A stretch of 46,442 nucleotides of DNA from Microcaldota archaeon (GTDB lineage: Archaea; Micrarchaeota; Micrarchaeia; Norongarragalinales; Norongarragalinaceae): NCBI GenBank assembly GCA_013360305.1, contig JABWCK010000002.1:1-46442 (forward strand), in the 5' to 3' direction. The position numbers and the translations under genes are program-made. The notes beneath the pieces are model-generated. The model saw only the letters and a list, made by a program, of their open reading frames with translations, did not search any database and was not told the DNA's origin. Of the stretch, positions 10,666 to 45,859 are shown one piece after another; positions within the stretch are counted from its first letter, which is position 1; every line of letters starts with the position of its first letter.

Positions 10666-11085
10666 TCACTCTTTCTTTTTCTTAGCTGCAGGCTTCTTTT
10701 CAACTGTTTTTGATTCAGTTACTTTGCCGCCTAGTTTCTCGATTACTTTCTTTAATTCCTCATCAGCAGCTCCGCCAGAGTTGATTGCAATAGCACTTGT
10801 ACCGACTCCTAGCCCGCCAGCCTTGCCTAGCTCGTCTTTAGTGTTTACAAAGCAGTAAGCAATGCCTTTTTCCTTGCATAATACTGGCAAGTGCATTACG
10901 ATTTCTTCAGGGTCAACGTCGCCTGCGACAATAACTAGTTTCGCTTCACCACGCTCGATTGCCTTAGTGGCTTCATTAATTCCTTTCCTAATGCGTCCGC
11001 CACTTTGTCTAGATTTCTCTAAGACTTGCAAAACGCTTGCTTGTACATCAGAAGGAGTCTCGTTGTCTACGTAACTTTTCGCCAT
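10666..11085 (-). CDS. rpl7ae: Ribosomal protein eL8 (L7Ae)
   Basis: A 139-residue L7Ae protein. In archaea this protein binds kink-turns in 23S rRNA, in box C/D and H/ACA guide RNPs and in RNase P. The core is visible at residues 8-120: GGRIRKGINEATKAIERGEA with the RNA-binding NEATKxIERG helix, then LVIVAGDVDPEEIVMHLPVLC and GKAGGLGVGTSAIAI. The C-terminus is a lysine-rich tail. It heads the rpl7ae-rps28e-rpl24e-valS operon. It is relevant here because the tRNA-Trp intron in this window looks like a box C/D guide, which L7Ae would bind. Confidence 0.95.
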   Translation of the reverse strand: MAKSYVDNETPSDVQASVLQVLEKSRQSGGRIRKGINEATKAIERGEAKLVIVAGDVDPEEIVMHLPVLCKEKGIAYCFVNTKDELGKAGGLGVGTSAIAINSGGAADEELKKVIEKLGGKVTESKTVEKKPAAKKKKE

Positions 11086-45635: not shown

Positions 45636-45822
45636 GGGGTTGTGGTATAACCTGGCAGCATGTTAGGCTCCAGATAAATTTTTTCCCTCAAAAGAAAAAA
45701 TTTAGTAAAAAACTTAGGTATTTTGACTCTGCAAAGAGAATGATTTGAAAAATGGAGCTCTGATTTCGTGACGAGCGTTTTTGAGATACCTGAAGATCCG
45801 AGTTCGAATCTCGGCGACCCCA
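45636..45822 (+). tRNA. tRNA-Trp (CCA) with a 114-nt intron
   Basis: The two halves form a full cloverleaf. Acceptor GGGGTTG at 45636-45642 pairs with CGACCCC at 45815-45821 (one G-U), discriminator A at 45822, no encoded CCA. Anticodon stem TTAGG 45663-45667 pairs with CCTGA 45789-45793. The loop C-T-CCA-G-A has the anticodon CCA at 45670-45672. T-arm CCGAG, loop TTCGAAT, CTCGG at 45798-45814. The D-arm is weak, with one mismatch. The intron interrupts after position 37 (about 45674-45787; the boundary can slide by one base with the same product), the canonical archaeal site. A three-base bulge on each side of a short helix fits a relaxed BHB motif. Confidence 0.9.
45674..45787 (+). ncRNA. 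Box C/D guide RNA in the tRNA-Trp intron
   Basis: Boxes: C-like ATGATTT at 45740-45746, D' CTGA at 45760-45763, C' GTGACGA at 45768-45774, and a possible D CTGA at 45790-45793, which is in the 3' exon. The 7 bases before D' (TGGAGCT) pair with G30 to A36 of the same tRNA, with the fifth base upstream of D' opposite C34. This gives 2'-O-methylation of C34 by the N+5 rule, as known for the intron of Haloferax pre-tRNA-Trp. The second target is not identified. RNA-level proof is lacking. Confidence 0.65.
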
Positions 45823-45823
45823 T

Positions 45824-45859
45824 GTCCGCATGGGGGACAGTAGTCCCCCTCGCCCGGAC
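45824..45859 (+). ncRNA. GC-rich double-stem structure after tRNA-Trp
   Basis: Outer stem GTCCG (45824-45828) with CGGAC (45855-45859), inner 7-bp stem GGGGGAC (45832-45838) with GTCCCCC (45843-45849) over an AGTA loop. GC content far above its surroundings. It is followed by a short C/T tract and T's (45860-45875). It could be a stable terminator of the tRNA transcript, or a small RNA; it lacks a clear ACA box, so I do not call it H/ACA. Confidence 0.4.

Follow-up and report, generated by a model that had tools for sequence, protein, structure and literature searches.

A tRNA-Trp intron of a Microcaldota archaeon as a probable, circularly permuted dual box C/D guide for C34 and C39

We report that the intron of a tRNA-Trp(CCA) gene in a Microcaldota archaeon (assembly GCA_013360305.1) is, with a probability that we put at roughly 80%, a dual box C/D guide for 2'-O-methylation of C34 and C39 of its own tRNA, homologous to the guide known from Euryarchaeota and circularly permuted. 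The stretch that was analysed (contig JABWCK010000002.1, 46,442 nucleotides, referred to as the window) is part of an 821-kb assembly that is 89% complete. As a prediction from sequence the dual guide is well supported, and we infer that an RNP assembles on it, that the two positions are methylated, and that the intron circularizes and acts in trans. Dual guides in tRNA-Trp introns constitute a known system and what appears to be new is the permuted order of the boxes; a literature search, with the primary Haloferax and Pyrococcus papers outside its scope, turned up no description of such an order in a tRNA-Trp intron.

The tRNA-Trp gene and the guides of its intron

The predicted features are listed in Table 1. 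The acceptor (7/7), anticodon (5/5) and T (5/5) stems are fully paired, and a class-wide pattern search found a single tRNA-Trp 5' exon in the genome. ARAGORN with default settings did not call this gene, because of its intron. In the Rfam search tRNA was the sole family reported, with no match to a C/D family, and the minimum free energy of the intron alone gave no signal (z -0.27), as expected of a kink-turn RNA.

Table 1. Predicted features of the tRNA-Trp gene, its intron and a gene for a C/D RNP component in the window
Feature	Position	Strand	Basis
tRNA-Trp(CCA) gene	45636-45822	+	Rfam tRNA match, 33.3 bits (gathering 29)
5' exon, tRNA positions 1-37, anticodon C34-C35-A36	45636-45673	+	Rfam tRNA match; stem pairing
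Intron, 114 nt, canonical site 37/38	45674-45787	+	
11-bp hairpin at intron 5' end	45675-45704	+	Fold
Guide 39, TTAGGTAT	45714-45721	+	8/8 pairs; covariation with target in relatives
Box D' (TTGA)	45723-45726	+	Kink-turn search independent of guide; covariance model match
Hairpin CTCT-GCAA-AGAG closing the D'/C' kink-turn	45727-45738	+	Fold z -2.1
Box C' (ATGATTT; consensus RUGAUGA)	45740-45746	+	TGA core nearly invariant in relatives; model match
Guide 34, TGGAGCT	45753-45759	+	Pairs G30-A36
Box D (CTGA) of the C34 guide	45760-45763	+	Guide geometry; alignment of relatives; covariance model match
Box C (GTGACGA), 3' of box D (permuted position)	45768-45774	+	Kink-turn with box D, closed by loop TTTC
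3' exon, tRNA positions 38-73	45788-45822	+	Rfam tRNA match
L7Ae-family gene, kink-turn binding C/D RNP component	10762-11034	-	PF01248, 92.7 bits

An initial annotation of this DNA proposed that the intron carries a box C/D guide which, by the N+5 rule, targets C34 of the tRNA it is spliced from; both geometry and shuffles agree with this prediction. Guide 34 pairs through six Watson-Crick pairs and one G-U pair, lies directly 5' of CTGA, and its N+5 base, the fifth upstream of this box, is opposite C34. Among 20,000 dinucleotide shuffles of the intron, a matching C34 guide appeared in 2 when CTGA was demanded and in 20 when any NNGA was accepted. The CTGA had been named a D' box; the box is real, but it corresponds to the canonical D box of the C34 guide.

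The second target known from the Haloferax system had been considered absent or changed. We find, however, a complete second guide that faces C39, with C in place of the haloarchaeal U39. This segment is followed by one base and then TTGA, and it pairs with A-2, U-1, A38, C39, C40, U41, G42 and A43 (seven Watson-Crick pairs and one G-U), thus spanning the 3' splice junction and placing its N+5 base opposite C39. A position-39 guide was matched in 1 of the same 20,000 shuffles and both guides together in none. Because guide 39 pairs with the last intron bases, its target would be the unspliced precursor, which is also the target stated for Haloferax (PMC2584109).

The window has two kink-turn motifs, C/D and C'/D'. 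C and C' boxes had also been annotated, and what had been overlooked is the circular permutation of the box order. A CTGA in the 3' exon (45790-45793), earlier taken as the candidate D box, was rejected: these four bases belong to the anticodon stem (C40-A43), and the D' box is the intronic TTGA. Nor would splicing separate a D box from its guide, as had been suggested: both D-type boxes are intronic and each belongs to a kink-turn closed by its own loop.

Some features of this and other tRNA genes were noted in passing. A perfect 7-bp, G+C-rich hairpin (GGGGGAC-AGTA-GTCCCCC, 45832-45849) starts 10 nt 3' of the tRNA. At least nine other tRNA genes in the genome have introns (about 21-87 nt), most of which ARAGORN set at sites other than 37/38; these intron-containing tRNAs were checked for C/D boxes and no convincing guide was seen. 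A second intron in the T loop seems to be present in tRNA-Trp of many relatives (L015, L093, L094, L117, L123, L127, L129 and L131) and is absent from the gene in the window.

Conservation and covariation among relatives

Seventeen related introns, with the window left out, were aligned and trimmed around the motifs (one row, L094, is slightly misaligned). The alignment has two helices, both of them kink-turn stems, with 89.9% of the cells paired and a covariation score of 0.788, as compared with 0.188 +/- 0.045 for shuffled and at most 0.144 for slid versions. Specifically, the D'/C' closing stem is 98% paired and covaries, as does the non-canonical stem of the box C kink-turn. A covariance-model search of the intron had been suggested in the initial annotation, and the model built from these 17 relatives matches the intron: among the window and the loci it gave a match at 45713-45776 (56 bits, E 4e-13), which was also its only match across the genome (E 5e-12). 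The model did not match a Natrinema copy of the gene, a scan of viral contigs gave one match, which was unrelated, and a search of a Poseidoniales genome found no tRNA-Trp.

The boxes are short and degenerate, and box searches alone are known to give many false hits, which is what would speak for the view that this AT-rich intron looks like a C/D guide by chance. This is contradicted by the shuffles, by the match of a model built without the window and by the covariation, and we reject chance as having next to no probability.

For guide 39 the pairing itself covaries. When the guide-39 segments were chosen by the kink-turn only, 7 of 28 (window included) paired at seven or more of eight positions with their own 3' splice junction, where 0.11 would be expected. 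The pairs change between A-T, G-C and T-A at intron base -1, between A-T, T-A and G-T at position 41, and between G-C and A-T at position 39, and the observed guide-target pairing was reached by 0 of 20,000 permutations in a set of 15 sequences (the window, 13 relatives and Natrinema) that were picked as likely dual guides and hence are not an unbiased sample. In a fold of the whole precursor a long helix (z -3.0) connects the 3' splice region to the guide-39 segment, and this would suit a role in pre-tRNA structure, in which the segment pairs the splice region in cis and controls splicing while no methylation is guided. Such a role leaves unexplained, however, the box motifs, the precise N+5 spacing of an NNGA from each of the targets and the covarying kink-turn hairpins, and we consider it very unlikely; the dual guide accounts for the intron better.

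Guide 34 is present in those families of the order of the window that have readable introns, and among the relatives TGGAGC is followed by NNGA at the same distance in nearly all introns that hold it. The initial annotation would have given up the guide if boxes and guide were not conserved in related introns, and on the sequence side they are. Guide 39 is strong in part of the order (the window, L025, L023 and L094) and also in several families elsewhere in the class; in others it is absent or altered. Introns of 38-66 nt with guide 34 and one hairpin-closed kink-turn only (L012, L089, L091, L092, L095 and L096) possibly represent a half-size C/D guide, and still other relatives have guideless introns of 12-48 nt. 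To judge from these sequences, the gradation from introns with both guides, through those with one, to those with none looks like stepwise loss. Separately, in two families (f10 and f14; L028, L036, L044, L047 and L143) the C34 guide reads AUCUGGA and its pairing takes in G37 together with intron bases 1 and 2, which means that the target must be unspliced; in these five introns guide 39 is unrecognisable.

Box order, splicing and the proposed course

The linear order in the window is guide 39-D'-hairpin-C'-guide 34-D-loop-C, as compared with C-guide 39-D'-C'-guide 34-D in Thermoplasmatota, where the two intron ends pair and close the last kink-turn. Read around a circle the two orders are identical, and the order in the window is therefore a circular permutation, with the predicted splice join falling between box C and guide 39 and not between D and C. 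The linear C-D'-C'-D order closed by the intron ends, which is typical though perhaps not defining of such guides, is not found in the window, where the order is canonical only in the circle; since box C lies 3' of box D we call this intron a variant.

We scored the arrangement class-wide, in introns that are related and so do not represent independent events: all 40 introns scored in the class of the window have a C-type box (NRTGA) at most 32 nt 3' of box D, as do 3 of the 38 Thermoplasmatota introns with guide 34 and a D box. The permuted arrangement, defined by such a 3' C-type box combined with either a closing stem of 3 bp or more or a minimum of three pairs in the adjoining non-canonical stem, was found in 26/40 and 0/38, respectively. 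Conversely, the canonical arrangement was found in 33 of the 38 Thermoplasmatota introns and in 1/40 of the class of the window, and in that one intron (L127) the counted box overlaps its own D' box. The haloarchaeal comparison consists of one Natrinema copy (L103), which has both guides in the same registers as the window and lacks a box C 3' of D. Our script recognised no 5' box C in it; inspection by eye shows a degenerate GGGACGA close to the 5' end and an intron-end stem (GGCGC/GCGCC), both of which fit the canonical order. This copy is an unannotated tRNA-Trp gene with a C/D intron on a 987-kb plasmid of Natrinema thermotolerans, and its intron also contains a copy of the anticodon loop (ACTCCAGA), which is complementary to its own guide 34.

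Compared with the standard bulge-helix-bulge, which has a 4-bp central helix and two 3-nt bulges, the splice motif in the window is imperfect, with three of four central pairs (C32, U33 and C34 pair with GAG at -3 to -5, while C35 faces U), and to judge from this pairing it is a relaxed form. The splicing endonuclease aligns with 4fz2, the epsilon2 enzyme of ARMAN-2, over almost all of its length (434 bits), and by this similarity it is predicted to be of the broad-specificity epsilon2 type; the ARMAN-2 enzyme takes relaxed bulge-helix-bulge substrates (PMC12397907). Together with the small genome, the match makes Micrarchaeia the probable class of the window.

Fibrillarin and Nop5 were not found in the 89% complete assembly. 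Together with the many families of the class that have short guideless introns, and others that have guide 34 only, this favours a homologue of the known system that is fading, so that C34 and/or C39 are no longer methylated in this species. However, the window retains both guides, fully paired, and both kink-turns, and its guide 39 is stronger than in most relatives. Moreover, fibrillarin is present in 9/10 genomes of the same family and both proteins in all 11 other genomes tested, and the two genes adjoin in one genome (G015), so that one assembly gap could hide both. We judge such loss of function to be improbable, though less so than a purely structural role, and prefer an active dual guide.

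For the dual guide we envisage that L7Ae would bind the two kink-turns and be joined by Nop5 and fibrillarin, and that the epsilon2-type endonuclease and a ligase would excise and circularize the intron. Circularization would set box C upstream of guide 39 and thereby restore the canonical ring, which could then act in trans on further unspliced pre-tRNA-Trp, because guide 39 also pairs the last two intron bases. The tRNA-Trp intron was circular in all archaea reanalysed (PMC12558985). The chances are about even, in our estimation, that the guide is circularly permuted across the whole class, with splicing joining its ends and completing it, and that the circle is the form active for C39 and methylates later precursors in trans.

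Some data count against this course, besides the two proteins that were not found and the imperfect splice motif. The two pairings extend over no more than 7 and 8 bp, boxes C' and C deviate from the consensus, and box C and guide 39 would be about 50 nt apart in the circle. The usual spacer is about 12 nt, far below this value. The 5' hairpin of the intron (45675-45704) perhaps shortens the spacer; by-eye comparison of introns of the same order revealed a hairpin with a UCAA/UCAC-type loop at this end in the window and in L023, L052, L053, L021, L042 and L100. In P. furiosus C39 is also a predicted target, and its methylation was not detected (PMC7668247).

In 2008 the choice between action of this guide in cis, ahead of splicing, and action in trans was described as an open question (PMC2584109), although results in vitro point to trans. 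Circles of the tRNA-Trp intron occur widely, and the literature searched assigns no role to them. With a permuted guide the question can be tested, since the tRNA exons keep box C and guide 39 apart in the linear precursor and the two are joined in the circle only; a class-wide permuted order would suggest selection on circularization. The data also add a small-genome, DPANN-like lineage to those that have the guide, and searches for C/D RNA that assume a linear order will miss permuted guides.

Comparison with known systems

We accept the kinship to the Haloferax system that was proposed in the initial annotation, that is, to the known dual guide for C34 and position 39. In Haloferax volcanii the tRNA-Trp intron is dispensable. 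There, in Pyrococcus (as sR50) and in other archaea the guide resides in the same tRNA-Trp(CCA), in a 37/38 intron, with guides for 34 and 39, and likewise pairs intron bases, so that its target is unspliced; by 2008 at least 29 archaea were known to have it (PMC2584109). The window differs in that box C lies 3' of D and not at the intron's 5' end, in having C instead of U as target 39, and in its imperfect bulge-helix-bulge. Thermoplasmatota share the C34 guide and the D'-C' unit, and a second guide faces C39 in those introns that were inspected by eye, but their linear order is canonical and the terminal stem is formed by the two intron ends.

Two permuted RNAs offer further parallels. The permuted C/D box sRNA24 of Nanoarchaeum equitans, for which the circle was detected in cells (PMC3491384), likewise has the correct order only in the circular molecule; it is a single free-standing sRNA beside a split gene, whereas the RNA in the window is a tRNA intron, conserved in its class, for which we propose circularization by splicing. 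Finally, the permuted SRP RNA of Thermoproteus becomes functional via circularization with the tRNA splicing machinery, according to the account cited in PMC7994747. As we propose for the window, a permuted RNA is there completed by circularization, but the RNA is a different one, and its mature form is the ring itself, which does not arise there as a splicing by-product.
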